This document shows, in pieces, positions 2,121-30,775 of a stretch of 44,276 nucleotides of DNA (the stretch's first letter is position 1; the number at the start of each line of letters is the position of its first letter). The notes under the pieces were generated by a model, which was not told where the DNA came from, made no database searches, and saw only the letters and a list, made by a program, of their open reading frames with translations. This DNA comes from a virus. The DNA lies in IMG/VR virus record IMGVR_UViG_3300037184_000177, positions 1 through 44,276 of that record; one strand, given 5' to 3'. The position numbers were made by a program, and so were the translations under genes.

Positions 2121-3740
2121 ATGGCCGACTTTGACGATCAACTTGGCGATCAACCGCCCGTGATGCGGCGATTACTGCGGCGGAAGCAGGCGCAGGCCGA
2201 TCAGGCTGCATCCCAGGGGCAGGCCATCGCTGACCGTGACACCGCACAGCGGGAGGCGCAGGCCAACCGCGTGGCCGGGCTCCAGTCGCAGGCGATGGGC
2301 ATCGCGGGCCAGCGGCAATTGGCCCGGGACCGCTTCGGCTACGATACGGCCCTCGGCCAGCAGTCGGCGGCAGTGCAGACCGACCGCGATGCGGCCACCT
2401 GGCAGCACGATGACGAACTGTTTGATCGGCACCAAGCCGGCCGCATTGCCGAGATGCAGCTTGAGCAGCTTCACAAGGGCCAGCAGGATCAATTCGCGGC
2501 CGAATCCCAACAGCGTCGTGACGATCGGCTGCAAGGCTACGACGTGCAAAAGTTGATCCAACAGCAGCAGTACGACGCCCAACGGCAAGAGCAACAGCAG
2601 AACTTTGAATCTGATCGGCTGGGCCAACAGCAGCAGTACGAAGCGGTGCGGACTGGCTTCGAGTCGGGCCAGCAGCAAGATCGGCTGGGCCAGCAACAAG
2701 ACTTCGAGCAGCAACAGCAGCATGCCCAATTCCTGCACTCGGCGGCGCTGAACATGTTGGCCCAACGGGGTCGCGAGGCGGAAGAGGAGATTGTCAATCG
2801 CCACAAAGAGGGCACGCTGGCAGAAGAACACGGCTGGAAGGTCGACCAGATCAAGCAGCTTCAGCAGTACGACCAAGACAAGCTCACGGCCCAAGGATTG
2901 GAAGCAGGTAGCCTGATCCTGGACCCGGCCGCGGCGCCGCTGGTGGCGCAGGCCCGGCAGGCAAAGGCCGACATTGCTTCCAGTCCGGTGCTCAGCGATG
3001 CCGACAGACAAGCCAAGTTCAAGGAGTTGGACGACAAGATTCTTTCCTACCACCGCACCTTTGCCCGTCCGCAGTCTGCGGCGGAAAAGGGATCCAGCTA
3101 CGCCGCCGCGCTGGCCAAGATCGATCCGGAACTACGACCGCTGTACGAGCAAGACCCAAATACCGGCAGGCCGGTGCCCAGCCGCGTGCTGGCGACATAC
3201 GACGCCAATCGTGAGAAGGCCGGCATTGCCAAGCAGAAGATGACGCAAGAACAGGAGGCGAAGCAAGACACGGCTCAGGAGCGGCAAGCGGAACACGAAG
3301 CGCGGATCAAGGAATCTCAGCACGAGGCTTGGGATACTCGTCGGCAGGACCACGAAAAGGAACGGGCACGTTTGCTGCCGCAGATCGAAAAGGAAATTGA
3401 TGAGGAAGATGCCGACATTCCCATTCCTAAAGAGCAGCAGCATTGGTACGGCAGTTCAACCCGCAAGATGACCGCTCTTGAAAAACACAAGTTGGCCAAA
3501 GAACGGTTAGACGCTGAGTTGGACCCAAATATGTACGGTAGTTCGCCCGACGAGTATTGGGCGAAACATGGCGGTTTGTCAACGGCTTCAGCCGCTCCCT
3601 CGCAAGCCGCTCAGCAACAGATTACGCCGCAAGAGTTTGATCGTCAATGGACAGCGTTGCCTCCCGGCGGAAAGTTGGTCGGCCCGGATGGAAAGACCTA
3701 CGTAAAGAAGGGGCGGAAGAATGCAGTGGGCACCCCCTGA
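2121..3740 (+). CDS. Gln-rich coiled-coil internal virion protein (539 aa)
   Basis: The ATG follows an AAGGA site. The central third (roughly residues 100-230) is an extremely Gln-rich charged coiled coil with repeated blocks such as RLGQQQQYE and QQQNFE, followed by further long charged helices to about residue 440. The C-terminal segment holds a short GPDGKTYVKKG motif. The gene overlaps the start of the 1800-residue protein gene by 20 bases, so the two are probably translationally coupled. Size, composition and position between a gp14-like and a very large gp16-like protein suggest an internal core or DNA-ejection protein. No enzymatic motif is visible. Confidence 0.6.
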   Translation: MADFDDQLGDQPPVMRRLLRRKQAQADQAASQGQAIADRDTAQREAQANRVAGLQSQAMGIAGQRQLARDRFGYDTALGQQSAAVQTDRDAATWQHDDELFDRHQAGRIAEMQLEQLHKGQQDQFAAESQQRRDDRLQGYDVQKLIQQQQYDAQRQEQQQNFESDRLGQQQQYEAVRTGFESGQQQDRLGQQQDFEQQQQHAQFLHSAALNMLAQRGREAEEEIVNRHKEGTLAEEHGWKVDQIKQLQQYDQDKLTAQGLEAGSLILDPAAAPLVAQARQAKADIASSPVLSDADRQAKFKELDDKILSYHRTFARPQSAAEKGSSYAAALAKIDPELRPLYEQDPNTGRPVPSRVLATYDANREKAGIAKQKMTQEQEAKQDTAQERQAEHEARIKESQHEAWDTRRQDHEKERARLLPQIEKEIDEEDADIPIPKEQQHWYGSSTRKMTALEKHKLAKERLDAELDPNMYGSSPDEYWAKHGGLSTASAAPSQAAQQQITPQEFDRQWTALPPGGKLVGPDGKTYVKKGRKNAVGTP

Positions 3741-6700
3741 AGACGCTATTCTTGATTCGTCTGCGGCAAGTGAGCCAGCGGCATCATGGGCACCTCCAGC
3801 CGATGCCGAACCTTTGAAGTTGGCGCACGAGGCGGGTACTCCAGTCCCAGATGGAACTGCGCTGCCGGACGATAAGCAATTCGAAACCGCCATCAATACC
3901 GAACTCGACGCGCGGCGAACTTCCGCCAAGTACGGCAAGCGAGCATCGGGCGAGTACGATGACTTTGCGGGTGCCGTCGCCAAGCGGCTGGGGAGTGAGA
4001 GTAACCCAAAGTTTGTGGAAGCCCTGCGGCCACGACTGGACGCGGAAGACTGGGTTGGCAACGTCTTTGATTTCAGTCAACCGAAGGAACACCAATCGGA
4101 GATGCCGCGAGCCGAACTTCGTCCCTATATTCTTGGCGCAATGCAACGGGAGTACCAGAAACGGGATGAACGGCAAAGCGATAGTTGGCTCAGTCGCGCG
4201 GCGGGGTTGGGGGTGACGGGTATTGAAAAAGTGGGCGGGGCCATCGAACGGCTTAACCCGCTGCTCAGCCGAGAAGAATGGGAGTGGCGACAACAAATGG
4301 AATCGGTTGCGACCGATCCCAAGCGATTTGTCCATCCCGATCAGGGATTCTTGAGCAAGAACGCCGAACAGGCGCTAGGAATGCTGCCCACCCTCGGCGC
4401 GGCGGCGCTGGCTGGCCCGGGCGCGGTGCCTGTGATGTTTGGACTTCCTAAGGGCGTGGAAGTCGAAGAGGCGGCCCGCGCCCGTGGTGCCTCACCTTTG
4501 GCTGCCATTGGGGCCGGGGCGGTGGCTGGAACCATTGACAGCCTGCTGTTCTCGAAGCTGCCAGGACGGGTACTGGGCTCCTTGGGCGGCCAAGCGGCGG
4601 TGTCTCAGACGATCCGCAGCGTTGCCTCCAAATTTGCCCTAGACACACTCAAGACGGGCGGGGTACTGACGGCCTCTGGATTACAGGGACGGTTGGCAGA
4701 AGAAGGGGCGCTATGGGCAAGCGGCAAGGCGGGAAAGTCGGCTGGTGAATTGTGGAAAGATACGGTATCTGGCATCCCCGATGCACTGATGCAATCTGCC
4801 ATGATGCACTCTGTAACCGTGGTCGGGGATCTCGCCAACTTACCCAGAAACCCACCCCGCAAGGCATTTGAAGCAGCCGGAGGACAACGGGGTACGAGTG
4901 CCAAGGACCGTGACGCCGTGGTCCAAGCCGCTCAACAGGCCCGCCAGAACGCTCAACAAGGGGCAGTGGCCCCCGAGACCCAAACACCGCCCGCAACGCA
5001 GCCAACGGGCCCAGAATCGATTCCTACCACGGCTGCCGAACCACAAACGCAAGGAGTAGCCAACGATGCCCAGCAAAACGAAGAAACAGGCCCGGACGAT
5101 GGCAGCCGCGGCCCACAGCCCGAAGTTCGCCAAGAAGATGGGAATCCCCCAGAAGGTAGCCAAGGAGTTCAACCAGGCGGACGCGGGGACGGGGATACTG
5201 AAGGGCAAGAAGACCCAAAGCAAGTCGGCGAGCTTCCGGATGCGGATGCGACGGGCGTAACGACCGGCGTTAAGTCGGAAAAAGTCGCGGAGCAACGGGC
5301 AGGACGCGGTTTGCCGCCGGTTGAGGGGTCTGCGGCCCAGAGTGATGCCGGTTGGATCGCCGCGGCGCAGTCGCAATTGGACAAGGATCCAAAAGCGGGT
5401 GAGAAGTTGGTAGCGGATCTGACCGTCAATCCGCGCGATCCCGGGCCGGTGGGCCACGCACTGCTGAATCTTCACAACGCTCGACTGAACCGCGATTACA
5501 ACGCGGCGATGGCGGCCGGGGATGCGGACCAGAGCCGGCAATTGGAAGGCCAGTTGGCGGACTTTGAAGCTGCCGATAAGGCGGGTGGGGAGGAGTGGGG
5601 TCGGTCTGGCAAGGCCCGCCAGACGGAATTGAACGAGGATTTCACCCCCGCTGGCCTCACGCGCAAGCGGCTGAAGGCCAACGGAGGCCAACCGCTCACC
5701 GACGATGAGCGGACGACGATCAGCAAGCAGGCGGTCGAAATTGCTGAGCAACAGAAAGTGATCGACGAGGCCCGGGAGAAGTTGCGGCAAAATGATCTTG
5801 ACGCCCAACATGACGCGTTAGTGAAAGATGTCAACGCCAAACGGCAGGCAACACTTGAAGCGCGAATCAAGCGGCAATACGCGACCGCCCAAGAGCACGG
5901 CATTGATCCGGATGAACTGCGGCAGGCCGCCGAGGATCGCGCCAAGGTCGAGGCGGACGAAGCGGAGAAGTACAACGCCGCCTACAAACAGGTTGTGAAG
6001 ACCACGGGGTTGACGCCCGCGAAGATCGAACAGTTGCGAGACGCTGGAAAAGATCCCGTGGCCGATGCCGATTTGGATACGGTGGCGGCGCAGTTGGCCC
6101 GTGATTACCCGGAACTGGGACTTCAGGGAGAAGACGAGTTTGCCCCGCAGACCAAGGACCAGGCGCAAGCTTTGGTCGATGTCATTGATCGAGGTCCCAA
6201 GTCGGTTCCCCAATGGCATGAGAAGTTGGATGAGGCGGCGCAGGCGCTGGCTAAGGAAAAGGGTGTTGCTGCGCCGCCGGCTGATGCCGGCGATTCCTGG
6301 GAAGGCGGAGGGGGGCAGGAATCGTTTGACTTCGGCGGTGAAGCGGAACAAACGAAACCGGGGAAGGCGGACGTTGACGGCCGCGCGGCCAAGAAAAAGG
6401 CGGTTGCGGATGCGTGGGACGCCTTTGGTAAGGTGGTCAAGAGTAAGTTTTACGCCAACCCGCTGGATCCTGAATTGATCTCGGCCGCCGTGAGAGTTGC
6501 CAAGGCCCACATTGATCTGGGTATTGTCGACTTCCGCCGCTTCATGGACGAGGTGAAAAAGCGATTCAAGGACGCAGCCGAGAAGATGCGGCCAACGCTG
6601 GTGGCAGCGTGGAAGCAACTCCAGGAATCTGGCGAAATTCCCACACGGGACGTGGATGTGGAAGATCCGGCGTCGGTTCGGCGGTTGGCCCAATCACTGC

Positions 6701-9123
6701 ATCGGCAGGCCGTGGAACTGGGCACGACCGACCGTGAAGACGCGGTTAAGGAAGTGCATGAGCAGCTACGGGAATACCTCCCCGACATTACCCAGCAGCA
6801 AACCGAAGATGCCATGTCGGGGCGAGGCGTGTGGAGAGAATTGAACCAGGACGAGATTGCGGCCAAGGTCGGTGAGCATCGCGATGAACTCCGCGAACTG
6901 GGAAATCTCGCTGAGGCTCAATCGGGAAAGCAACCACCGAAGACCGGCTTTGAGCGGCGCCCGGCCAGTGAGTTGGCGCGGCAGACGCGACAAAAGGTCG
7001 CTGCCGCGGTAAAGGCCCTGCATCTTCCGGATCGGCCCGATGACATGAAGAGCGCACTGGCTACCGCCAAGACGACCCTTCGCAACTGGCTGGCGGATCG
7101 GCGGAAAGAAATCGCGACCCGGGAAAAGATCGTCCAGGAGCAACGCACGCCGCCGAGTGACGAGGAGCTACGGGAGTTGCAGAGCCAGAAAAAGGGCGTG
7201 AAAGAGATTTGGGATAAGATATTCCCCTCCAACGCCGCTAAGGCCCGTGCGGACAAGGCCCTTGATGACCGGTTGCAGGCAGAGTGGGAGAGCGAAGGGG
7301 GATCAGGGAAGGCACCGAAGATCAAGCCGCCGCTCACTGAGGAGCAACGTACCAAGCTGGTCAGCGACGGCCTTGATCGGAGCATTTTGCAACTGGAGAG
7401 TGATCTACGCAAGGGGAACATTGGCCGCAAGACGCTGACCAAGAAACTCCGCACGGCGCAAATCGATTCGCAACGGGCAATGCTGGAACATCTCAAGGCG
7501 GTACGCGAGGAAATGCGGGTCAACAGCCCCGAGTATCAGGCCAGCGAAGCGGAGCGACGGTTGGCACGCTACACGACTCAAAAGACCAAACAAGTGGCAA
7601 CGTGGCAGCAGCGGCTTGTGGAAGCCCAACGCGGAGAATTACCCAAGCCACGGGCGGAACCGCCCACATCGCCTGAAATCAAAACCGCAAATGCCAAGAT
7701 CGCGCGGATCAAACGCGACGTGCAGCGCGCGGAAAACGAGGCCAAGGCGCGACAAGAGAATCGGGCGGAAAAGCTCGGCTCGTTGGCAACCAGCGTCATT
7801 CAATCCAACGTACTGAGTTCCCCTACGGTCGTGTTGCATATTGTTGGTGCCGTGGCATGGAAGATCCCGACGATGATTGGGGATGAAATCGCCCGGGGCG
7901 TCTTATCCAAGCTACCGGGATTTCGGGAGTTGAGCGTCGTGGAAGGCCGGTCGGATCTCGGCGCATACCTTCGGGCGTTGTTGGACCTGAAGTCCATTGG
8001 TCGCAATGCCATGGATCAGGTGTTGCAGCACGGCACCTTATCGCATACGGAATTTGGCGAAGTACGCGGGCCAAAGTCCTGGGCGGTCCCTGCGCTGGAC
8101 GCCAGCCCTACCCAGCGACGGCTATTGCACGCCGCTGACATGGCCGTGGAAATGGCCGGCAGGGCGCACGGTGCGATGAAAGAGGTGGTGCGGACTCCGG
8201 CTGAGGCATTGGCTCGGTCTAAATACGAGGCGGACGCCAAAGAGCACGGATACGACATCAACGATCCGGAGGTCCGGCAGAGGATCGGCCAGGCTTCCTA
8301 TGAGTGGGCCAACCGGCAAATCTTGATGCAGAAAAGCGAACAAGCTACGGCACTGCGGAGTTTGACGACGGCAAAGGTCGATCCCGTCACGGGGCACAAA
8401 ACGGGGGCTGGGATCGTCAAAGAGGTCTTTGGTCATGGTGTCTTACCGGTCGTACGAGTGGGCATGAACTGGGCAGCCGAGATGATGGAGCGGAGTCTTG
8501 GGGCCGTGTCGGGGTTTGGCCGTTTTGCCTTGCACTCGCTGATATTGCGGGACTTGCAGCAGTTGTCTCCGGTAGCCCAGGAGGTGATTGCGCGGCAGAT
8601 GGTCTACGGCCTCTCCTCACTCCCCGTGTGGGCGCTGCTGGGATGGTTCGGTTACGATCATTTTGGCGGTTTCTATCGCGGGAGAGGGGCAGAGAAAAAG
8701 GCGAAGTTGAAGGCCGGGGAAATTTCCATTGGCGATACAGTGATTTCCCATAGCTTGACGCATTCCCCAGCGGTCGGCGTGGGGCAGGCATACGCGACGC
8801 TCCGTAAACTGTTGGAGGAAGTCAACAAAAGGGGTAAAACGAAGCGTAGCGTCGGGGATGCCATGCTCACGGCCGCGGCCGGGGTCCTGGATCAGACTCC
8901 GGTTTCTGCGGAGTCCCGCACGTTTACGGGGCTCACCAATCCCGAGACTGCATCCACGGCGGTGGGAAAGTTGTTGCAGACGATGATTATCCCTTCCTGG
9001 CTACGCTTCATTGCCACCGAGAACGATTCACGCAATCGCGACGAACGCGGAGTTATGGGGCCCATTAAGGGCTCGATCCCCGGAATTCGCGGTAGCTTAC
9101 CTCCCAAACGACCAAGCAGGTAG
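3721..9123 (+). CDS. Giant internal virion / polyvalent-type ejection protein (1800 aa)
   Basis: This is the largest gene in the window; it starts inside the upstream gene after AAGGGG. A hydrophobic, Gly/Ala-rich region lies at about residues 220-300. It is followed by an acidic, Pro/Gln-rich linker and then a very long charged helical region (about 500-1370). A second hydrophobic helix begins near residue 1360 (SVIQSNVLSSPTVVLHIVGA), and another lies near 1620-1640 (LSSLPVWALLGWFGY). The C-terminal few hundred residues resemble the ends of large polyvalent or gp16-like ejected proteins. Such proteins enter the cell with the DNA and span the envelope. I see no clear lytic transglycosylase or polymerase motif. 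Its position directly before the enzyme cassette is notable. Confidence 0.6.
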   Translation: MQWAPPEDAILDSSAASEPAASWAPPADAEPLKLAHEAGTPVPDGTALPDDKQFETAINTELDARRTSAKYGKRASGEYDDFAGAVAKRLGSESNPKFVEALRPRLDAEDWVGNVFDFSQPKEHQSEMPRAELRPYILGAMQREYQKRDERQSDSWLSRAAGLGVTGIEKVGGAIERLNPLLSREEWEWRQQMESVATDPKRFVHPDQGFLSKNAEQALGMLPTLGAAALAGPGAVPVMFGLPKGVEVEEAARARGASPLAAIGAGAVAGTIDSLLFSKLPGRVLGSLGGQAAVSQTIRSVASKFALDTLKTGGVLTASGLQGRLAEEGALWASGKAGKSAGELWKDTVSGIPDALMQSAMMHSVTVVGDLANLPRNPPRKAFEAAGGQRGTSAKDRDAVVQAAQQARQNAQQGAVAPETQTPPATQPTGPESIPTTAAEPQTQGVANDAQQNEETGPDDGSRGPQPEVRQEDGNPPEGSQGVQPGGRGDGDTEGQEDPKQVGELPDADATGVTTGVKSEKVAEQRAGRGLPPVEGSAAQSDAGWIAAAQSQLDKDPKAGEKLVADLTVNPRDPGPVGHALLNLHNARLNRDYNAAMAAGDADQSRQLEGQLADFEAADKAGGEEWGRSGKARQTELNEDFTPAGLTRKRLKANGGQPLTDDERTTISKQAVEIAEQQKVIDEAREKLRQNDLDAQHDALVKDVNAKRQATLEARIKRQYATAQEHGIDPDELRQAAEDRAKVEADEAEKYNAAYKQVVKTTGLTPAKIEQLRDAGKDPVADADLDTVAAQLARDYPELGLQGEDEFAPQTKDQAQALVDVIDRGPKSVPQWHEKLDEAAQALAKEKGVAAPPADAGDSWEGGGGQESFDFGGEAEQTKPGKADVDGRAAKKKAVADAWDAFGKVVKSKFYANPLDPELISAAVRVAKAHIDLGIVDFRRFMDEVKKRFKDAAEKMRPTLVAAWKQLQESGEIPTRDVDVEDPASVRRLAQSLHRQAVELGTTDREDAVKEVHEQLREYLPDITQQQTEDAMSGRGVWRELNQDEIAAKVGEHRDELRELGNLAEAQSGKQPPKTGFERRPASELARQTRQKVAAAVKALHLPDRPDDMKSALATAKTTLRNWLADRRKEIATREKIVQEQRTPPSDEELRELQSQKKGVKEIWDKIFPSNAAKARADKALDDRLQAEWESEGGSGKAPKIKPPLTEEQRTKLVSDGLDRSILQLESDLRKGNIGRKTLTKKLRTAQIDSQRAMLEHLKAVREEMRVNSPEYQASEAERRLARYTTQKTKQVATWQQRLVEAQRGELPKPRAEPPTSPEIKTANAKIARIKRDVQRAENEAKARQENRAEKLGSLATSVIQSNVLSSPTVVLHIVGAVAWKIPTMIGDEIARGVLSKLPGFRELSVVEGRSDLGAYLRALLDLKSIGRNAMDQVLQHGTLSHTEFGEVRGPKSWAVPALDASPTQRRLLHAADMAVEMAGRAHGAMKEVVRTPAEALARSKYEADAKEHGYDINDPEVRQRIGQASYEWANRQILMQKSEQATALRSLTTAKVDPVTGHKTGAGIVKEVFGHGVLPVVRVGMNWAAEMMERSLGAVSGFGRFALHSLILRDLQQLSPVAQEVIARQMVYGLSSLPVWALLGWFGYDHFGGFYRGRGAEKKAKLKAGEISIGDTVISHSLTHSPAVGVGQAYATLRKLLEEVNKRGKTKRSVGDAMLTAAAGVLDQTPVSAESRTFTGLTNPETASTAVGKLLQTMIIPSWLRFIATENDSRNRDERGVMGPIKGSIPGIRGSLPPKRPSR

Positions 9124-9128
9124 GAACC

Positions 9129-10124
9129 ATGCCCGACACCGTGAAGCGTCCGCTGTTGCGGCCCAAACAGGCCGAATCGCATCCCAGTCAGAAGGCCGAT
9201 CCCAACGTCAAGATCGAGAATCCCTCGCTGCTGGACTTCCCCATCTACGGAATGATCTTCCCGCACAAGTGGGATACCGACGATCCCAACAACGTGTGGA
9301 TGAAGGGTATGTCGGCGGAAGAGATTGATGAGGATTGGCAGAAGTGCTACCAACAGTGGATGTGCCTCTACGGCTGGCTGACCAGTGACAGCACCCGCGT
9401 GATGGAACTCCCTTCGATCGGTGACTTTGCCGACGCGGTGTACATCGCCAACATTGGCATCATGCTCTGCCATTTGCCGCGGCCGGTGTTCGTGGGGTCG
9501 AACTTCAAGAGCCCTCCGCGGCGTGGCGAAGAGAAGGCCGCCATGGACTACTTCGGGGCGTTTGGCTATCAGACGCAGAAGTGCCCCTTCTACTTCGAAG
9601 GGGAAGCCGACTTGAAGCATATCGTCGACCGCACCTACATCGGGGCCTATGGCATTCGCACCGAGCGGAAGGCCCTGGAGTGGTTCGAACGGACCTACGA
9701 CATGAAGGTCCTTCCGATCGAGATGACCGACGCACGGAACTATCACCTCGACACCGAGATTTTCCCGCTCACGGCCGAAAAGGTCCTGGTGGCGGTGGAC
9801 GCGATCACGCCGGCAGAATGCAAGGCCATCGAGAAGGTCTGCGAAATCATCCCCGTGCCAAAGAAGCTGGCCTATGCCGGGACCACCAATTGCGTCCGCA
9901 CGATCACGGCCGTTCTCTGCGGTAGTTCCCTGGAGGCCATGAAGCCCAGCGACGACGATTGGCAAGAGCAGTTTGACAAGCGCAAGTTTCTCGAACAGGT
10001 CTGCACCAAGAACGGCTTCGAACTGGTGATGCCGGACCTGAGTGAAATGAGCAAAAGCGGGGCTGATTTGTCGTGTTGTTGTTTCCATGTGAACCGCGCC
10101 GCCTACCTCTACCCGATCACCTAA
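9129..10124 (+). CDS. DDAH/amidinotransferase-like guanidino-group-modifying enzyme (331 aa)
   Basis: The sequence carries the signature blocks of the guanidine-modifying-enzyme superfamily (DDAH, arginine deiminase, amidinotransferases). ADAVYIANIG at 101-110 matches the 'PDxVFxAN' block. FEGEAD at 156-161 matches the substrate-binding 'FEGGD' block. HLDTEIFPL from H206 supplies the catalytic His. Cys316-318 near the C-terminus (DLSCCCFHVN) matches the nucleophile block. DDAH hydrolyses methylated arginine to citrulline; amidinotransferases move the guanidino group. The exact substrate cannot be read from sequence. The triple Cys makes the nucleophile ambiguous. The gene begins five bases after the giant virion gene and ends four bases before a PSD-like gene, so it sits inside the late transcript. 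Confidence 0.78.
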   Translation: MPDTVKRPLLRPKQAESHPSQKADPNVKIENPSLLDFPIYGMIFPHKWDTDDPNNVWMKGMSAEEIDEDWQKCYQQWMCLYGWLTSDSTRVMELPSIGDFADAVYIANIGIMLCHLPRPVFVGSNFKSPPRRGEEKAAMDYFGAFGYQTQKCPFYFEGEADLKHIVDRTYIGAYGIRTERKALEWFERTYDMKVLPIEMTDARNYHLDTEIFPLTAEKVLVAVDAITPAECKAIEKVCEIIPVPKKLAYAGTTNCVRTITAVLCGSSLEAMKPSDDDWQEQFDKRKFLEQVCTKNGFELVMPDLSEMSKSGADLSCCCFHVNRAAYLYPIT

Positions 10125-10128
10125 CGCC

Positions 10129-10854
10129 ATGGCACTCCCACTTAAAGAATGGTTGGCGACTGCCGAAGTACAACGCTTTTCGAAGATGAGCGCGGAAGAG
10201 GCCGGCCACGAATACTTCTTCCGCAACCCGCCGCGCACGGTCTGGGGCAATCGGGAGTTGTTCGGCTCGCCGGCGGATGGCGTGATTACCACCCAGGGGC
10301 GCTTTGCGCCTGACGCGGATCTGCTGGACGTCAAGGGCGTCGATGTGACTGTCAATACGCTCCTCGGCCCCCATGCCATCGACACGCCCGCCCTGGTCAC
10401 GGCCATCTTTATGACCGCTGCCGATGTGCATTGGAACCGTTGCCCAACCGACGTTACCATGGGGCGTTACCCCCTGCCCCCGATCCGCACCCGCAACCTT
10501 CCGATGCTCTGGGCTGAGCGGGATATGCTGGATTCTGGGCTGATCCGCAAGGGGAGCTTTGGCTTCATGCAGGCCAATGCCCGGGTGGTCAACCGCTGCT
10601 ACTGCGGTGCGCTGCGGTATCGCTACTACCTGGTACAGCTTGCGGACTCGGAAATCAATTGCATCGTGCCCCTCAAGAGCACGCCGGTGGCCACCTTCAA
10701 CCAGAACGAGCGGTTTGGGCAAATTATGTGGGGCTCGATGTGCGTACTGGTATTGCCGTTGGACTCACGCTATACATTCCATAGCTTGTGCCACACGGCC
10801 GATCATGTGGAAGCGGGTGTGGACCTTTTGGTTTCGATAAAAAGGAGAATCTGA
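10129..10854 (+). CDS. Phosphatidylserine decarboxylase-like protein (241 aa)
   Basis: The colinear PSD blocks are visible. SPADGVITT at 47-55 matches 'SPxDG', with D50 as the triad Asp. DVKG at 67-70 matches 'QVKG', and VNTLLG at 75-80 matches 'LLG'. DVHWNRCP at 99-106 matches the 'DYHRxHxP' block. NARVVN at 150-155 matches 'NERV', and RFGQIMWGSMCVLVLP matches the 'GxFxxGST' self-cleavage site, with S203 as the expected pyruvoyl precursor. PSD is a membrane-bound pyruvoyl enzyme converting phosphatidylserine to phosphatidylethanolamine; homologues decarboxylate other substrates. Oddities: the second His of the HxxH pair is Arg104, and the cleavage motif is WGSM, not LGST. The stop overlaps the start of the next gene (TGATG). 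The ribosome site is weak, so coupling with the upstream gene is likely. Confidence 0.75.
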   Translation: MALPLKEWLATAEVQRFSKMSAEEAGHEYFFRNPPRTVWGNRELFGSPADGVITTQGRFAPDADLLDVKGVDVTVNTLLGPHAIDTPALVTAIFMTAADVHWNRCPTDVTMGRYPLPPIRTRNLPMLWAERDMLDSGLIRKGSFGFMQANARVVNRCYCGALRYRYYLVQLADSEINCIVPLKSTPVATFNQNERFGQIMWGSMCVLVLPLDSRYTFHSLCHTADHVEAGVDLLVSIKRRI

Positions 10855-11753
10855 TGCGGGACAGCGAAACGAACGTCGTGTATGTGACCGATGCGTTGGG
10901 TCGCTACCCCGCCGTGCTGGGGGCGATCAAACACGCCTTGGAGTACATGGAAGTCGAGTGTCGGCCGCTTTGCAGTACGAAAAACATATGGTGTCGGGAC
11001 TATATGCCGGCGCAGGTCAATGAATATTTTGTAAAATTCAACTACAAGGGTTACGGCGACCCGGCCACGGTTGCGTCCGGGCTGAGCTACAGCCAGTACC
11101 CGCAATTGGCTGTCCCGCGTTCCTGCTGGGAAAACCTGGGCTGGGTAGTGGAAGCGGATCTGATCGTCGACTGTGGCAACATAGTCCGCTATGGTGACCG
11201 GGCGTTGATGACGGAAATCGTCTACCAGCACAACCCGGGTACCCCGCCGGGGATCATCCGCCAGCGATTGTCCGAGTTGTTGCAGGCTGAGATTATCTTC
11301 ATCCCTCCCGAGCCGGGCGACGATCTGGGCCACACCGATGGCATCGTGAAGTGGATCGACGATCGGAATTGCTTCCTCAACGATTACCGCGTGATGCGTG
11401 ACGCCGCTTACCGGGACTACACCACTTGCGTGCGCTCCATTTTGAAGGCGTCCGGGATCGAAGCGGTGCCATTCCCCTACGCCTACAACCGTTGCCCGGC
11501 GGTGGACGAAGCGGATTTCCGTAAGCGGTATCCCGATGCCGACGAAATCAATCCCGGCTGGGGCTACTACATCAACTACCTCCAGGTTAAGGGTGGCATC
11601 CTGTACCCCACGTTTGACATCGACGACGACGAACGGGTGGAAGCCTGTTTGTGGGATGCCTTCCCAGATCTGGAGTTGTTCGCCATCGATTGCTCTGACC
11701 TGAGCATGGAAGGGGGCCTCGTCAACTGCACCACCATGAACTATTGCCTGTAA
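10854..11753 (+). CDS. Agmatine deiminase / peptidylarginine deiminase-like protein (299 aa)
   Basis: I place the start at the ATG at 10854 because AAGGAG lies at 10842-10847 and the codon overlaps the previous stop; a longer frame from 10788 would sit inside the PSD-like gene. The blocks of the PF04371-type family are present in order: WCRDYMP (46-52), DCGN (106-109), GHTDGIVKWID with H160 and D162, and SMEGGLVNCTT with the nucleophile Cys292. Relatives convert agmatine to N-carbamoylputrescine, or peptidyl-arginine to citrulline (P. gingivalis PPAD). No signal peptide is present, so it would act in the cytoplasm or inside the virion. It completes a three-gene cassette with the DDAH-like and PSD-like genes. 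Confidence 0.82.
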   Translation: MRDSETNVVYVTDALGRYPAVLGAIKHALEYMEVECRPLCSTKNIWCRDYMPAQVNEYFVKFNYKGYGDPATVASGLSYSQYPQLAVPRSCWENLGWVVEADLIVDCGNIVRYGDRALMTEIVYQHNPGTPPGIIRQRLSELLQAEIIFIPPEPGDDLGHTDGIVKWIDDRNCFLNDYRVMRDAAYRDYTTCVRSILKASGIEAVPFPYAYNRCPAVDEADFRKRYPDADEINPGWGYYINYLQVKGGILYPTFDIDDDERVEACLWDAFPDLELFAIDCSDLSMEGGLVNCTTMNYCL

Positions 11754-11807: not shown

Positions 11808-12191
11808 GTGATTCGGCCAATACTTTTGACATCCGGTACGATTCTCGGCACGATACTAGTGTCGTTGAAGCCGCTGTTTTCGCAGGCGACATCCACGAAC
11901 TCCGAAATGCTGCAAGTTACCGGGATGGGACTCTTGGCGTCGATGTTGGCCTATTTCTTTCTCCGCTATGTTCCCGCCGAACGCGAGGAGCGCAAGACGG
12001 CGGCGGCGATGGCAACGGAGGCGGTGGCAAAGGCGGCAGTGGCGGCAGCGGAGGCAGTGGCAAAGGCGGCAGCGGCAAACAACGCGGTGATAAAATCGAT
12101 TGTCGCCGATCACGCGGCCACGATTGCGCACATGCTGCGCAATTGCGGCCAGCGGCCGGATCCGCAAGCGGGCCGGAGGGAAGACGCGTAG
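11808..12191 (+). CDS. Holin-like small membrane protein with Ala-rich tail (127 aa)
   Basis: The GTG start follows a weak AAGGTAGG site. Two hydrophobic segments are visible, at about residues 3-25 and 35-53. They are followed by a charged turn (PAEREERK) and a long Ala/Glu/Lys helix with repeated AVAKAA units, then a basic C-terminus. Two short membrane helices plus a charged tail are typical of phage holins or spanin-like proteins. The gene starts a block of small membrane and secreted proteins, which supports a lysis role, but no family motif proves it. Confidence 0.5.
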   Translation: MIRPILLTSGTILGTILVSLKPLFSQATSTNSEMLQVTGMGLLASMLAYFFLRYVPAEREERKTAAAMATEAVAKAAVAAAEAVAKAAAANNAVIKSIVADHAATIAHMLRNCGQRPDPQAGRREDA

Positions 12192-12227: not shown

Positions 12228-12572
12228 ATGATTGCTCAGTCGGACCCCCAAGTCGAGATGTTTTGGGATTGGTGTCTCTTGGACGTGCTGCCCCCGGGCG
12301 CGACCAAGGGCGGAATTCAAATGCCCGAGACCGTCGGTCAGGGCGGTAGCGAGTTGCGGTTGGCCCGCGTGGTTGCGGTGGGGCCAGGCGTTCCGGACAG
12401 CAACGGCCAGTTGTTCGATCATGGGATTCGTCCCGGGGATCATATCTACGCCGCCGCTAGCCGGGCGATGGCGGAAGTATTTTTGGAAGGCAAGACCTAC
12501 ACCATCGGCCAGGCGCAGACGCTGATTATGCGGTTGCCGCGGCCAGAACCCCAAGGAGTACCCCAGTCGTGA
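12228..12572 (+). CDS. groES: Phage GroES-like co-chaperonin (114 aa)
   Basis: A strong AAGGAG site precedes the ATG. The product matches Cpn10/GroES along its length: DWCLLDVLPPGATKGGIQMP at 14-33, covering the first strand and the mobile loop base; VVAVGPGVPDSNGQ at 48-61, the family's VxAVGxG block; and IRPGDHIYA at 67-75, matching 'VGDxVLF'. GroES caps the GroEL chamber; phage versions such as T4 gp31 replace the host protein to fold the capsid protein. The loop between about 33 and 44 is Gly-rich and longer than usual, and the C-terminus has a Pro/Gln extension. No GroEL is seen in the window, so it would work with host GroEL. Confidence 0.82.
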   Translation: MIAQSDPQVEMFWDWCLLDVLPPGATKGGIQMPETVGQGGSELRLARVVAVGPGVPDSNGQLFDHGIRPGDHIYAAASRAMAEVFLEGKTYTIGQAQTLIMRLPRPEPQGVPQS

Positions 12573-13703: not shown

Positions 13704-14630
13704 ATGTCTGTTACCATGCGTCCCCGTGGTGCGCGTCCCAGTCCGCGGCATGTACTGGCCGCGGCCCGACCGCACGTCAGTGCGAGCGCGCCAGCGCAAT
13801 ACGGCTGCATTCCTCCGCAGAACTCGATGTTTTTGAACGACACCGATGGCGACTGCGTGTTGGCCGAGGAATGCGTAAACATCAACACCTTTGCGTACAA
13901 CACCACCGGCCAATGCGCCCTGGTGACCGACGCCGAAATTCAAACCTTTGGCGCCGCGCATCGCATCTTGAACGGTGCGGACCTCTCACAGGTCATGGGC
14001 TACATGCAGCAAAGCGTTTGCAATGGTCTGACCATCGGTACGCGGATGTATTTCGACGGACCTCCGACCAGCGTGGATTGGACCAACCGGGCCAATCTCT
14101 GCTCGGCAATCTTCGCATCGCAAGGGTCGATCAAGATCAGTGTCGACGCCGGCGTGCTGGAAAGCGCGGTTGGCTCGTCCAATGGTTGGTATCTGGCGTC
14201 CTACCGAGGAACCTCGCAGGACCATTGCGTGGGTTTGGTCGGCTACGGGACGGCATCGTTCTGCTTTGGGCTCTGCGGCGTTCCCGTACCGGCTGGCGTT
14301 GACCCCAACTCGTTCTGCTATCTGCTCGACACCTGGAACACGGTCGGAGTGGTAGCGGCTGCCGTGATCGAATCGTCATGGGTAGGCGAGGCATGGTTGC
14401 GGTCGCCCACTTCGATCCCAATTCCGCCGACAACTCCGGTGCCGACCCCGGTTCCCGGTCCAACCCCAACCCCCACGCCCGTTCCGGTGCCTGCCATCGT
14501 GGCCGGTCCGGTCACGTTGACGCCTGGGCAGTGGGATCTGCGAGTCTACAACCGCGCATTCCATTATGCTGATGCCGGTTCGATCACAATTCCCACGGCC
14601 GGAAGCTACAAGGTTTCGTTGTCCCAATAG
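13704..14630 (+). CDS. Papain-like cysteine peptidase with Pro-rich linker (308 aa)
   Basis: A TAGGAG site precedes the ATG. The sequence shows a papain-fold order: NDTDGDCVLAEECVNI with candidate nucleophile Cys51 (equivalent to the 'GxCGSCW' region), DHCVGLVGYG with His174 (equivalent to 'NHAVLLVGYG'), and LLDTWNTVG with Asn212 (equivalent to 'KNSWG'). A Pro/Thr-rich linker follows (about 237-263), and then a small beta-type C-terminal domain. Such linkers join catalytic and binding domains in secreted or virion-bound hydrolases. No signal peptide is obvious. Because no classical endolysin is found nearby, this peptidase is a candidate for cell-envelope degradation at lysis. That role is inferred from context. 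Confidence 0.65.
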   Translation: MSVTMRPRGARPSPRHVLAAARPHVSASAPAQYGCIPPQNSMFLNDTDGDCVLAEECVNINTFAYNTTGQCALVTDAEIQTFGAAHRILNGADLSQVMGYMQQSVCNGLTIGTRMYFDGPPTSVDWTNRANLCSAIFASQGSIKISVDAGVLESAVGSSNGWYLASYRGTSQDHCVGLVGYGTASFCFGLCGVPVPAGVDPNSFCYLLDTWNTVGVVAAAVIESSWVGEAWLRSPTSIPIPPTTPVPTPVPGPTPTPTPVPVPAIVAGPVTLTPGQWDLRVYNRAFHYADAGSITIPTAGSYKVSLSQ

Positions 14631-14667
14631 GCGTTCCCTGTGTGTCCCTGGCCCAAGGAGGTATTCG

Positions 14668-14997
14668 ATGAAAGGATTGTGTGTTGTCATCCTTGACTGT
14701 GCCGCCATGCTGATGCTGGCCAATCAAGCAACCGCGTGCAGCAGCTACGACAGTCGACAGATTATGACTACTGCTTACAACGTCGCTGTCCCGGAGGTGG
14801 CTATCTCTACGGTCCATGTGCCGCCGTGCGTGGCGCCTTCCGCCATCGTGCTAATTCCGACGCCGCCGCCCTGCGCGGTGCATCTGGTCGTGGTCGAACC
14901 GAACGGCCCTATCCGTAGATTTGTGGAGGCAGTGCGTGATCGGCAACCGCTGAGACGATGCCTCTGTTTTCTCGGTCGCGTGTTCGGCCGCCGTTGA
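14668..14997 (+). CDS. Secreted or lipoprotein-like small protein (109 aa)
   Basis: AAGGAGGT precedes the ATG at 14668; longer in-frame starts lie inside the peptidase gene. The N-terminus is a plausible signal peptide (MKGLCVVILDCAAMLMLANQ) ending at ATAC, where Cys could be an atypical lipobox or a Cys just after cleavage. The rest is Pro/Val-rich with several cysteines and ends in a basic tail. An outer-membrane spanin or surface protein is possible given the lysis context. No family is recognised. Confidence 0.5.
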   Translation: MKGLCVVILDCAAMLMLANQATACSSYDSRQIMTTAYNVAVPEVAISTVHVPPCVAPSAIVLIPTPPPCAVHLVVVEPNGPIRRFVEAVRDRQPLRRCLCFLGRVFGRR

Positions 14998-18206: not shown

Positions 18207-19298
18207 GTGGCGATCACCATCGACATTACATCTGGTCTTGCGTTCGTATTGTCTCACAACAAGCGGACCTATCCCCAGCATGTGAATCGTGTATCGTCCC
18301 TGGACGATCCATGCCTGCGGCGGCTCTACTATCGTCGCGCGGCATGGGACAAGGCGCAGCCGATCGACGATGGCTTGGCTGGAGTGTTTGCGACGGGAAA
18401 TATGCTGGAACCCGTGATTGAGCGCATTGTTTCCGAGGTCGGCTCCGCGTCCACTCCGCGATGGCGGATCGTCGGAAGCCAGACTCCGACCAATGACTCG
18501 TTGCTGAAAAAGTACCAAATAAGCGGTAGCATTGACGGCTTTCTGCAATCCTTCGATATTACGCTTGGTATCTGGATCACCATCGGTGTCGTTGATGTGA
18601 AGACGATGAGTCCGAACATCTATCCCCGGATCAATTGCTACGACGACCTGAACCGATACCCGTGGACGCGGGGATACCGCGGGCAATTGATGCTGTACTC
18701 GCTGGCCCACAACTTGGAACGCTGTTTCATCTTGGGGGTCAACAAAAACAACCTATACGAAATGAAGTTGATCGAGTTTGCATTGGACATGCAATACGTG
18801 GAGGAATTACTACAGAAGGCGGAACTCGTAAACATCGCCATCGAATGCAACGAACCGCCTGGCGGTGTGAACGATCCGGATGTATGTCCCAAGTGTGCCT
18901 GGTTCAGTTATTGCTGCCCAGATCTGGCCAGTAAGGGCACCCTAGAAATCTTAGACCAACCCGAACTGGAGGCGGTGTTGGAGCGCATGGCCGAACTGGA
19001 GTCAACGGCTGACGAATATGCAGATCTGGAAAAAACGCGGGATACCCTGCTCGTCAAAGGTCGCGATGTTGCAGTCGGGCGCTTCCTCATTTCGTGGAAG
19101 GAGCAACAACGCAAGGACGGCAAGGGTGGTGTGACGAAGTTTTTCACGAAGAAAATTCGCGCGATGCTAATACGCAAGGAGGCGCCGAAGGCAGTACCCA
19201 TCGCACCCCAGACTCCCTTACTGAAAGATGATGATGCGTTGATGGAAGCGGATTTTACGCTGTTTATGAGCCATATGAAAGGAGACCAACTATCGTGA
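18207..19298 (+). CDS. Cas4/RecB-type PD-(D/E)XK exonuclease with Fe-S cysteines (363 aa)
   Basis: AGGAGG precedes overlapping ATG (18205) and GTG (18207) codons; only the GTG is in frame. The nuclease core is clear: GNMLEPVIERIV (E68), GSIDGF (D110), GVVDVKTM (D130 and K132) and a QLMLYSLA helix starting at Q160. Cys36 (DDPCLRRLYY) plus CPKCAWFSYCC near residue 230 form the four-Cys pattern that holds a 4Fe-4S cluster in Cas4 and AddB. Such enzymes resect double-stranded ends to feed an annealing protein. The downstream third is a charged helical region. The gene overlaps the next start (GTGA). Confidence 0.8.
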   Translation: MAITIDITSGLAFVLSHNKRTYPQHVNRVSSLDDPCLRRLYYRRAAWDKAQPIDDGLAGVFATGNMLEPVIERIVSEVGSASTPRWRIVGSQTPTNDSLLKKYQISGSIDGFLQSFDITLGIWITIGVVDVKTMSPNIYPRINCYDDLNRYPWTRGYRGQLMLYSLAHNLERCFILGVNKNNLYEMKLIEFALDMQYVEELLQKAELVNIAIECNEPPGGVNDPDVCPKCAWFSYCCPDLASKGTLEILDQPELEAVLERMAELESTADEYADLEKTRDTLLVKGRDVAVGRFLISWKEQQRKDGKGGVTKFFTKKIRAMLIRKEAPKAVPIAPQTPLLKDDDALMEADFTLFMSHMKGDQLS

Positions 19299-21385: not shown

Positions 21386-22366
21386 ATGCTAACAAAACGA
21401 GACTACGTGGACGGGTGCGATTATCCCGGAAAGTACGATCCGACCGCTGTAAGCGTCGCTTTGGGCTGTTACTGTGCGGCTTTGAAAGTCCATCGCACAG
21501 TGATTGAAATAAAGCGTCCATGGTGGCAAACAGGCGGGTTATTGGAGGTCGTGCTTGGTGTAGCTCGGGACGCTCTGGCCGCTCGGGACGCTCGGGACGC
21601 TCGGGACGCTCGGGACGCTCTGGCCGCTCGGGACGCTCGGGACGCTCGGGACGCTCTGGACGCTCTGGCCGCTCTGGACGCTCTGGACGTAAATAGTGCG
21701 ATCCTGTTGCGGGAGTTTGGAAATTGGTGTGCTATGCGAGGTGCCTGGTGGTCTTGGGAATCGTCGTGGCTAGCGGCTGTTGCTTTCGGTGCGAGACAAA
21801 CCAACGCGACAAACGTATCTATCTGGGCAGAACCTATGTTGGATGCTTTTTGTAGCGGTTGTTGGTTTGTGTTTTGGTCGGAACACACGCTGTATTGGAC
21901 GCGTAAGCCAACGGTCACGGTCGAAAGAGGAACGTTTGGCCGACGCCTACATTGCGAATCGGGACCAGCCTGCACGAACGAGATCGAGAATCTTTATTTC
22001 TGGCATGGCGTGTTGTTGCCAGCTTATGCGATCATCGAGCCGGCATCGATCACGCTCGATGAGATCGAGCAGGAACAAAACGAAGAGACGCGTCGGATTT
22101 TGACTGAGCGATTTGGCTGGCCGCGATATATAGCCGAGACAGATGCAACCTGCGTGGAGTCGCGGCGGAATGACGTGGACGGGACTACGGAGGCGTTAGT
22201 TCGCCTCAAGGACGATTCGCAACGGTTGGTGTGCGCGTGCAGGAGTACCGGACGAGTCTACGCGATTGGCGTCCCGCGCGAGATAAGGACGTGCGAAGAG
22301 GCGCAGCGGTTTATGGTGGGCGGCTCGCGACTGGGCGACCGCTTGAATGTGATTGGAGCTTCGTAA
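21386..22366 (+). CDS. DUF6745-like protein with Ala-Arg-Asp repeats (326 aa)
   Basis: AGAAGGATTCGAGG precedes the ATG. The N-terminal part holds a low-complexity block of ARD/ALD units (about residues 62-100). The C-terminal half carries what I recognise as a DUF6745-like pattern: LHCESGPACTNEIENLYFWHG, then ITLDEIEQEQNEETRRIL, and ERFGWPRYI. The middle is rich in Trp and Cys. The family has no known function. The repeat block is encoded by a near-perfect nine-base tandem repeat and can vary in length by slippage. Confidence 0.55.
   Translation: MLTKRDYVDGCDYPGKYDPTAVSVALGCYCAALKVHRTVIEIKRPWWQTGGLLEVVLGVARDALAARDARDARDARDALAARDARDARDALDALAALDALDVNSAILLREFGNWCAMRGAWWSWESSWLAAVAFGARQTNATNVSIWAEPMLDAFCSGCWFVFWSEHTLYWTRKPTVTVERGTFGRRLHCESGPACTNEIENLYFWHGVLLPAYAIIEPASITLDEIEQEQNEETRRILTERFGWPRYIAETDATCVESRRNDVDGTTEALVRLKDDSQRLVCACRSTGRVYAIGVPREIRTCEEAQRFMVGGSRLGDRLNVIGAS
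21562..21690 (+). repeat. 9-bp tandem repeat (GCTCGGGAC and variants)
   Basis: About fourteen head-to-tail copies of GCTCGGGAC / GCTCTGGAC / GCTCTGGCC encode the ARD, ALD and ALA units of the DUF6745-like protein. The unit length is a multiple of three, so copy changes keep the frame. Confidence 0.85.
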
Positions 22367-29501: not shown

Positions 29502-29635
29502 TGGTCGGTCTCCGTTAGGCATGAGTGATTTCCTTGAAAAACAAAGGCGGAAAGCCATTCCTGCCGCAACGTGCGGTCCAGGCCAGCGCCCCCAGCACGG
29601 TCTGCGCAAGGGGCGTTCGGCGCGGGCCGAGGGGA

Positions 29636-30775
29636 CTACGTCGCGTCGGAGCCTACGCGACACACGGCTTGTTTGCCGGTACAGTCGATCGCTACGGCGA
29701 AGAGGCTTGCGATCTGGAATACGACAGCGGTGCCGCTGTAAATGCGAGTGGTAGCCTCGCCGTCCATGCTGTCAACACGCGACTCGCCGTACATGCTGCC
29801 AACACTCGCGTTGTCGTCCATGCTGTCAACACGCGACTCGCCGTACATGCTGTCAACACGCGACTCGCCGTACATGCTGTCAACACGCGCGTGGTCGTAC
29901 ATGCTGCCAACACGCGCGTTGCCGTCCATGCTGTCAACACGCGCGTTGTCGTACATGCGTCCAACACGCGCGTGGCCGTACATGCGGTCAACAATCGCCT
30001 CGCCGTCCATGCTGCCAACACGCGCCTCGCCGTACATGCCGTCAACACGCGCGTTGTCGTCCATGCTGCCAACAGTCGCGTTGCCGTATATGCGTCCAAC
30101 ACGCGACTCGCCGTCCATGCTGTCAACACGCGCGTTGTCGTACATGCTGTCAACACGCGCGTGGTCGTACATGCTGCCAACACGCGCGTGGCCGGTCATG
30201 CGGTCAACAGTCGCCTCGCCGTCCATGCTGTCAACACGCGCGTTGCCGTACATGCCGTCAACACGCGCGTTGTCGTCCATGCGGTCAACAATCGCCTCGC
30301 CGTACATGCTGCCAACACTCGCGTTGTCGTTCATGCTGTCAACACGCGACTCGCCGTACATGCTGTCAACACGCGCGTTGCCGTCCATGCTGTCAACACG
30401 CGCGTTGCCGTACATGCGGTCAACAGTCGCGTTGCCGACAAGGAAGTACCGCCCGCTGTATAACTCCTTGGCGTATGCGCGGATCACGCGCTTTGCGATC
30501 CAGCCGTCAAGGGCCACGCGGGCACGCACCTCAATGGCGCTAATTCCCTCCGTATCGACCCACTCGGGGACTTCGGCCTGATCGACGCGGAACTCCCAGC
30601 GATCAGATTGGGCTCCGTAGTCGTCGTTAGGGGGAGTAATCTCGACGCGGAGGACGTTCGGACCGCGAACCCCGTCTTGCAGTCCATGCTCGGCGATGAT
30701 CCCATCGTAGGAGTCGGTATCCATCGACCAGCACTCCTTGTTCTCGGTCAAGACAAAGGAAGCGGAGCGACACAT
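29636..30775 (-). CDS. Protein with 25 nonapeptide repeats, probable beta-helix (379 aa)
   Basis: GGAGG precedes the ATG at 30775; the longer frame from 30856 lacks a ribosome site. The N-terminal domain (about 1-115) is conserved-looking (KECWSMDTDSYDGIIAEHG, LRVEITPPNDD, WEFRVDQAEVPEW). Then come about 25 head-to-tail nine-residue repeats of the form N/E-A/S-R-V-D/G-S/R-M-Y/D-G/D. A short Cys-containing C-terminus ends the protein. The alternating pattern suggests a solenoid of stacked short strands; similar 'NATVxAxG' repeats occur in other phage and bacterial proteins. Function is unknown: surface binding or scaffold are options. Confidence 0.7.
   Translation of the reverse strand: MCRSASFVLTENKECWSMDTDSYDGIIAEHGLQDGVRGPNVLRVEITPPNDDYGAQSDRWEFRVDQAEVPEWVDTEGISAIEVRARVALDGWIAKRVIRAYAKELYSGRYFLVGNATVDRMYGNARVDSMDGNARVDSMYGESRVDSMNDNASVGSMYGEAIVDRMDDNARVDGMYGNARVDSMDGEATVDRMTGHARVGSMYDHARVDSMYDNARVDSMDGESRVGRIYGNATVGSMDDNARVDGMYGEARVGSMDGEAIVDRMYGHARVGRMYDNARVDSMDGNARVGSMYDHARVDSMYGESRVDSMYGESRVDSMDDNASVGSMYGESRVDSMDGEATTRIYSGTAVVFQIASLFAVAIDCTGKQAVCRVGSDAT
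29750..30438 (-). repeat. 27-bp tandem repeat array
   Basis: About 25 copies of a 27-base unit (on the + strand typified by GTCAACACGCGCGTTG followed by CCGTACATGCT) encode the nonapeptide repeats. Units vary mainly at a few positions. Because 27 is divisible by three, several other frames on both strands also lack stops. Confidence 0.9.

Follow-up and report, generated by a model that had tools for sequence, protein, structure and literature searches.

Why would a virus carry, one directly after another, two guanidine-modifying enzymes and a homologue of phosphatidylserine decarboxylase (PSD)? The question is raised by positions 9129 to 11753 of the IMG/VR virus record IMGVR_UViG_3300037184_000177, the whole of which (44,276 bases, hereafter the window) was analysed. 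The three genes, called P1, P2 and P3, are as follows.

9129..10124, + strand: P1, ArgZ/DDAH-type guanidine-modifying enzyme, 331 aa (open reading frame, profiles, alignment and model)
10129..10854, + strand: P2, divergent PSD-fold proenzyme, 241 aa (open reading frame, profiles and model)
10854..11753, + strand: P3, agmatine-deiminase-type protein (PF04371), 299 aa, found in only a subset of phages (open reading frame and profiles)

The answer we prefer, and hold somewhat more probable than its negation, is that P1 and P2 form an unrecognised mobile two-enzyme pathway leading from arginine to a decarboxylated amine, with a PSD-fold pyruvoyl enzyme acting as an amino-acid decarboxylase. The pathway would be common to unrelated phages, which carry it among late genes and often beside the capsid gene, and to bacteria that probably export the product. 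That P1 and P2 are a functional pair is almost certain; they make up a conserved two-enzyme module with P3 as an optional third member, undescribed in the papers searched.

Recurrence of the pair in phages and bacteria

Relatives of P1 are encoded in 116 stretches of IMG/VR, of which 80 were kept; other queries gave 28 loci with P2 and 18 with P3, and all loci were then scanned with profiles. P2 lies directly 3' of P1 in 76 of the 77 viral loci L066–L142, the exception (L141) being cut at the contig end. On one side of most of these pairs is a gene for the major capsid protein gp23 (seen in 69 loci) and on the other one for PhoH (67 loci), and the loci so flanked belong to T4-like phages. In about 17 contigs besides the window P3 adjoins P1, P2 or both, all three being visible in about 15, in the order P1-P2-P3 or P1-P3-P2. 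More than chance is at work, as independent viral contigs keep the genes adjacent in matching order. A first-pass annotation of the window had known of no phage system with this set, a view that must be given up now that P1 with P2 proves to be a widespread phage pair and the trio itself recurs. Beyond the trio, no further gene is general to the P3-type phages: a gene of the type encoding an 1800-aa protein just upstream of P1 in the window is present in seven of these contigs, and in L001 and L003 a relative of it lies 5' of P1. As nothing else is widely shared by the contigs, the mobile unit is the cassette itself.

Among phages with annotated genomes, 38–39 Campylobacter phages carry homologues of both P1 and P2, often labelled amidinotransferase and phosphatidylserine decarboxylase. 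The Fletchervirus genes with these labels are each about 33–34% identical to P1 and P2, yet unlike the pair they lie far apart in the genome and come with no P3 that we could find, and no paper found treats them as a pair. P1 and P2 are adjacent in Bacteroides phage DAC19 and its relatives, with P3 about 47 kb away (P3 was seen apart from the pair in DAC19 and one related contig). Among records that carry the pair, 24 from marine T4-like phages and one from a Campylobacter phage gave no match to P3. A protein search of IMG/VR with P3 alone also gave no match, whereas a search with a P3 alignment did find loci; in four phage contigs (L176, L177, L187 and L188) P3 homologues occur with neither P1 nor P2 within the DNA examined. 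Two contigs from different metagenomes, L003 (8991–9845) and L002, show a partial tandem duplication of the 5' part of P2, in which stop codons separate the copies and the frame shifts at a T run, the tblastn pattern being the same in both; this may be a pseudogene, recoding or a shared assembly error. In L003, two CsrA-type global regulators are encoded 3' of the trio (13936–14229 and 14433–14786; PF02599, 8e-18 and 1e-20).

The bacterial version of the pair is inverted, with the order P2-P1 in about 38 of the 53 loci from the genome collection. Carriers include Verrucomicrobiales, Latescibacterota, relatives of Saccharothrix and Amycolatopsis, Xenorhabdus, Sulfurimonas, Sedimenticola and others, and the pair is rare: in one class, one of 274 genomes has it. 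Beside the pair stands a MATE or ABC exporter in about 33 of the 36 loci with room to see one, on the same strand in 22 and convergent in 11. The convergent loci are mostly from related Verrucomicrobiales and are not independent, and the count omits two doubtful script-counted hits, L036 and L037. The neighbouring exporter fits an exported amine, or else the other kind of metabolite invoked by the main rival explanation below. Within 8 kb of the bacterial pair no P3 was seen, though a relative is encoded elsewhere in six of 14 genomes with the pair; nor were further tailoring genes widely common to the bacterial loci. An Allokutzneria genome has a second P2-P1 copy (L205; G002:C42:40500-60000), which adjoins a TetR-like gene and one for a fatty-acid-desaturase-domain protein. 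Elsewhere, an open reading frame a few kb from P2, P1 and ABC exporter genes (L010:8380-9939) matches a Cas9 helical lobe (PF18470, 4e-8).

All three genes are under purifying selection. Measured against L001, dN/dS is about 0.05 for P1, 0.11 for P2 and 0.33 for P3, with dS near saturation. The predicted catalytic residues, which are intact in the window, are kept at 91–100% over 117 P1, 117 P2 and 23 P3 homologues. P1 and P2 co-evolve: across 102 loci their distance matrices correlate with a Mantel r of 0.96, a value that none of 999 permutations matched and that is not corrected for phylogeny. The outcome that the first-pass annotation named as refuting its view, three genes never found together elsewhere and with disrupted active sites, is clearly contradicted by the neighbourhood search and by this conservation.

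Predicted reactions of P1, P2 and P3

Profile searches confirm the superfamily types first assigned to the proteins, with P2 matching PF02666 and P3 PF04371; the one amendment is that P1 matches PF19420 (DDAH_eukar, 3.8e-5) and not PF02274. The residues on which the following argument turns are encoded at three places.

9450..9452, + strand: P1 Asn108 codon, equivalent to ArgZ/AgrE Asn71 (alignment; invariant)
10074..10076, + strand: P1 Cys316 codon, predicted nucleophile, equivalent to ArgZ/AgrE Cys264 (alignment; invariant)
10732..10737, + strand: P2 Gly202-Ser203 codons, predicted self-cleavage site giving the pyruvoyl group (invariant in 47–48 homologues)

The closest solved fold to P1 is the ArgZ/AgrE arginine dihydrolase. 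A P1-family profile matched ArgZ/AgrE in the PDB at 2.5e-36 and DDAH at 1.6e-5, with amidinotransferases absent from its matches. The predicted structure, with a predicted local distance difference test (pLDDT) score of 88, aligns with ArgZ/AgrE at Z 32.4–32.9 (263–265 residues, 2.0–2.1 Å), followed by DDAH (26.7), AstB dihydrolase (26.6) and arginine deiminase (25.8), then amidinotransferases (22–23.5; 22.8 for arginine:glycine amidinotransferase, AGAT) and agmatine deiminases (about 20.5). Invariant residues of P1 are N54, N55, D102, N108, R131, E157, R177, H206, D208 and C316. In the alignment, N22, D65, N71, R90, R139, H168 and C264 of AgrE correspond to N55, D102, N108, R131, R177, H206 and C316, which are invariant in 41 diverse members. 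P1 thus shares with ArgZ/AgrE the fold and every catalytic and substrate-contact residue checked, the Asn71 position included. It differs from this enzyme of the cyanobacterial ornithine-ammonia cycle in being only about 25% identical, in lacking the C-terminal ornithine cyclodeaminase domain, in having its gene paired with a decarboxylase gene, and in scoring far under the NCBIfam equivalog cut-off for arginine dihydrolase (NF052232; 1e-20, 74.2 versus 450 bits). P1 would therefore work like an arginine dihydrolase, yet this score keeps us from filing it as a member of that family.

In DDAH and ArgZ, arginines of the R90/R139 type presumably bind the carboxylate of the substrate. As P1 keeps them (R131 and R177), its substrate is suggested to be an undecarboxylated amino acid, which would place P1 before P2 in the pathway. 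We consider it likely that this substrate is arginine or a close analogue. The Asn71 position of ArgZ we take to be tied to the second hydrolysis, and a PDB entry title describes an ArgZ/AgrE-type N71S variant covalently bound to a reaction intermediate. Asn108 was nonetheless rejected as sole proof of dihydrolase activity, since a DDAH-Mtb-type enzyme also carries Asn there; for the same reason it is possible that P1 is a deiminase yielding citrulline.

P2 matches PF02666 at 3e-16 (60.1 bits; gathering score 22) and falls far below every PSD equivalog model (best 44.6 versus 183 bits), for which reason we do not file it as a PSD in function. Its invariant Asp50, His101 and Gly202-Ser203 leave the Asp-His-Ser triad and the Gly-Ser cleavage site of PSDs intact, the site reading GSM or GSQ instead of the usual GST. 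Against the PDB, the P2-family profile found E. coli PSD as its sole match (8e-12), and the predicted structure (pLDDT 88) resembles E. coli PSD (Z 10.8) and the tryptophan decarboxylase PsiD (Z 9.3), itself related to PSDs (PMC12099186). The match to PsiD implies that a fold of the kind modelled for P2 can take amino acids in free form. Each of the four P2-bearing cellular genomes checked has a separate, much stronger canonical PSD, so P2 is not the housekeeping enzyme. While sharing fold and catalytic features with PSD and PsiD, P2 forms its own subfamily, which is found together with canonical PSD in those carriers that were checked and, Campylobacter phages apart, has an adjacent P1 at nearly every locus. 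On balance, and with a little less assurance than for the substrate of P1, P2 probably acts on the product of P1.

P3 matches PF04371 at 2.4e-21 (76.7 bits). Its conserved residues are W46, R48, D49, H160, D162, N241 and C292, of which D49, H160, D162 and C292 are the catalytic Asp, His, Asp and Cys. The P3-family profile finds agmatine deiminases in the PDB at 8.5e-23 to 2e-17 and PPAD at about 6e-6. With AguA/AIH enzymes P3 shares PF04371, WxRD, GHxD and the C-terminal Cys motif, but it is distant in sequence, shorter, and far under the AguA equivalog cut-off (TIGR03380; 31.3 versus 381.8 bits), forming a phage-specific branch. At 299 aa it stops just past the catalytic Cys, without the extra C-terminal part of PPAD.

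Taken together, the cassette would act late in infection, making a small amine from the arginine of the infected cell. P1 would bind a free guanidino amino acid, most likely arginine, and hydrolyse its guanidine, giving most likely ornithine (as a dihydrolase like ArgZ) and less likely citrulline (as a deiminase). The P2 proenzyme would cut itself at Gly202-Ser203, form a pyruvoyl group and decarboxylate the product of P1, from ornithine to putrescine or from citrulline to N-carbamoylputrescine. In only some phages, P3 would convert host agmatine to N-carbamoylputrescine, tapping a second host route to putrescine. The three proteins would converge on a small group of C4 amines, because the deiminase route through P1 would give N-carbamoylputrescine, also the product of P3. 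Uses for the amine would lie in translation and in neutralising the charge of packaged DNA. We infer the substrates, the products, the order of steps and the benefit to the phage. As a whole explanation, a polyamine cassette has in our judgement an even chance of being right, and the same balance holds for the product being putrescine or its carbamoyl form. Among the roles that the first-pass annotation offered, the one with the best support is the making of polyamine precursors from arginine derivatives.

Several observations weigh against this polyamine pathway. The top NCBIfam match of P1 is DDAH-Mtb (6e-24, 84.6 bits against a cut-off of 300), ahead of arginine dihydrolase, both scores being far below their cut-offs. 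The Asn71 equivalent is not specific to dihydrolases, occurring also in an actinobacterial DDAH-Mtb-type enzyme from the same bacterium as a P1 (one bacterium with P1 has a separate true DDAH-Mtb member scoring 414.5 bits). No PSD-fold ornithine decarboxylase was met in the literature searched, and an onward route to spermidine was not seen, with no AdoMet decarboxylase in 27 phage records bearing the pair. P3 would be partly redundant if P1 and P2 already make putrescine. The substrate assignments themselves derive from sequence and predicted structures, and the bacterial pair, with exporters next to it, could be making a specialised metabolite for secretion instead of putrescine.

Competing explanations

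That last possibility is the strongest rival, though we consider it unlikely: P1 and P2 would make a specialised exported small molecule, other than putrescine, from a guanidino amino acid, and phages would have taken over both genes. It draws on the rare and patchy occurrence of the bacterial pair across distant phyla and on the frequent exporter, often on the same strand, as for secreted metabolites. The dearth of shared tailoring genes speaks against it, as do phages without exporter or tailoring genes next to the pair, and MATE-type exporters could also export polyamines.

Appreciably less probable is the reverse order of steps, in which P2 is an arginine decarboxylase forming agmatine, and P1 or P3 act on agmatine to give N-carbamoylputrescine or putrescine. 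The agmatine-deiminase type of P3 would suit such a scheme, and pyruvoyl arginine decarboxylases of another fold are known in phages (PMC9992855). An adjacent P3 is, however, missing from most phages and all bacterial pairs. Further, the carboxylate-binding role that we assume for R131 and R177 leads one to expect an undecarboxylated substrate for P1.

Slightly more doubtful again is the idea that P1 is an amidinotransferase making a guanidino compound which P2 decarboxylates. Homologues in Campylobacter phages are annotated so, the superfamily is the same, and SxtG, HsvA and AGAT are among the structural matches of P1; their Z scores of 22–23.5 are nevertheless clearly more distant than those of ArgZ/AgrE (32.9) and DDAH (26.7), and the P1 profile search returned none of them.

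Membrane-lipid change before lysis, one of the roles first proposed, would have P2 turn phosphatidylserine into phosphatidylethanolamine. Membership of PF02666, at 60 bits where the cut-off is 22, and the presence of E. coli PSD among the closest solved relatives of P2 are in its favour, but we find it very unlikely given the low PSD equivalog scores, the normal PSD of the four genomes checked, and a constant arginine-type partner that has no lipid logic. Least credible of all is that the enzymes are packaged in the virion or citrullinate host or virion proteins, as had also been suggested: the location beside a putative ejected protein of 1800 aa and the naming of PF04371 after peptidyl-arginine deiminase are outweighed by P3 being nearer agmatine deiminases than PPAD and lacking its C-terminal part, by P1 falling in the free-amino-acid clade with its two presumed carboxylate-type arginines, and by the giant gene being unlinked to the pair in most phages.

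Setting in the window and place among viral polyamine systems

The genes were first described as lying back to back, directly after a giant gene and before GroES, in a late operon, and the layout bears out much of this. Four bases separate P1 from P2, and the P2 stop TGA (10852–10854) overlaps the P3 ATG (10854–10856) by one base; this ATG is the best start of P3, the mechanical call of the open reading frame beginning earlier at a GTG. A plausible ribosome site 5' of P1 is AGGTAGGAACCATG and that of P3 is AAGGAG, while P2 has no obvious one upstream. Inside the cassette no promoter-like site and no + strand terminator-like site was seen. The nearest neighbours are listed below.

3721..9123, + strand: 1800-aa gene, directly 5' of P1; context, outside the enzyme module (open reading frame)
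11808-12191: one small gene between P3 and the GroES homologue
12228..12572, + strand: GroES/Cpn10 homologue, two genes 3' of P3; context (PF00166, 2.3e-8)

A GroES homologue does follow the trio, but its linkage is not general, being seen only in Campylobacter phages and the window (in Campylobacter phage NCTC12673 it lies directly 5' of P2; L007:7694-8768), and it was rejected as a member of the module. The late position holds for T4-like phages, with the pair beside the gp23 capsid gene; for the window phage, the neighbouring genes in the record suggest that the trio sits in a late module. Elsewhere the record encodes a DnaB-type helicase, RusA, a Cas4-domain exonuclease (18207–19298; phrog_1990, 4e-16) and a weak terminase match. 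It further holds a DUF6745 protein (21386–22366; PF20530, 3e-11) and an open reading frame (29525–30463) matching a Plasmodium histidine-rich profile at 9e-14, probably through composition only.

Viral polyamine synthesis is already known from a survey in which giant viruses combine arginase and ornithine decarboxylase (ODC), chloroviruses encode arginine decarboxylase (ADC), agmatine deiminase (AIH) and N-carbamoylputrescine amidohydrolase (NCPAH), as in the ADC-AIH-NCPAH set of PBCV-1, and phages carry SpeD-derived ADC/ODC decarboxylases (PMC9992855). In the same survey AIH was reported from chloroviruses only, and arginase from no phage. These systems likewise supply putrescine from arginine, but by other enzymes, the dihydrolase-type and PSD-fold proteins not being mentioned there. 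An ocean survey of auxiliary genes covers phosphatidylethanolamine and creatine genes and not the P1–P2 pair.

Polyamines are required for phage growth and help to neutralise packaged DNA; viral polyamine enzymes are known, this route is not. Two annotations with nothing in common, 'amidinotransferase' and 'phosphatidylserine decarboxylase', had concealed the pair, and the exporter beside it in bacteria suggests that its product is secreted there. Should ornithine or citrulline prove to be the substrate of P2, the decarboxylases of the ornithine type would gain a fold not known among them before. The pair is found in roughly a hundred viral contigs, and since its carriers include Campylobacter and Bacteroides phages that can be cultivated in the laboratory, its role is directly testable.

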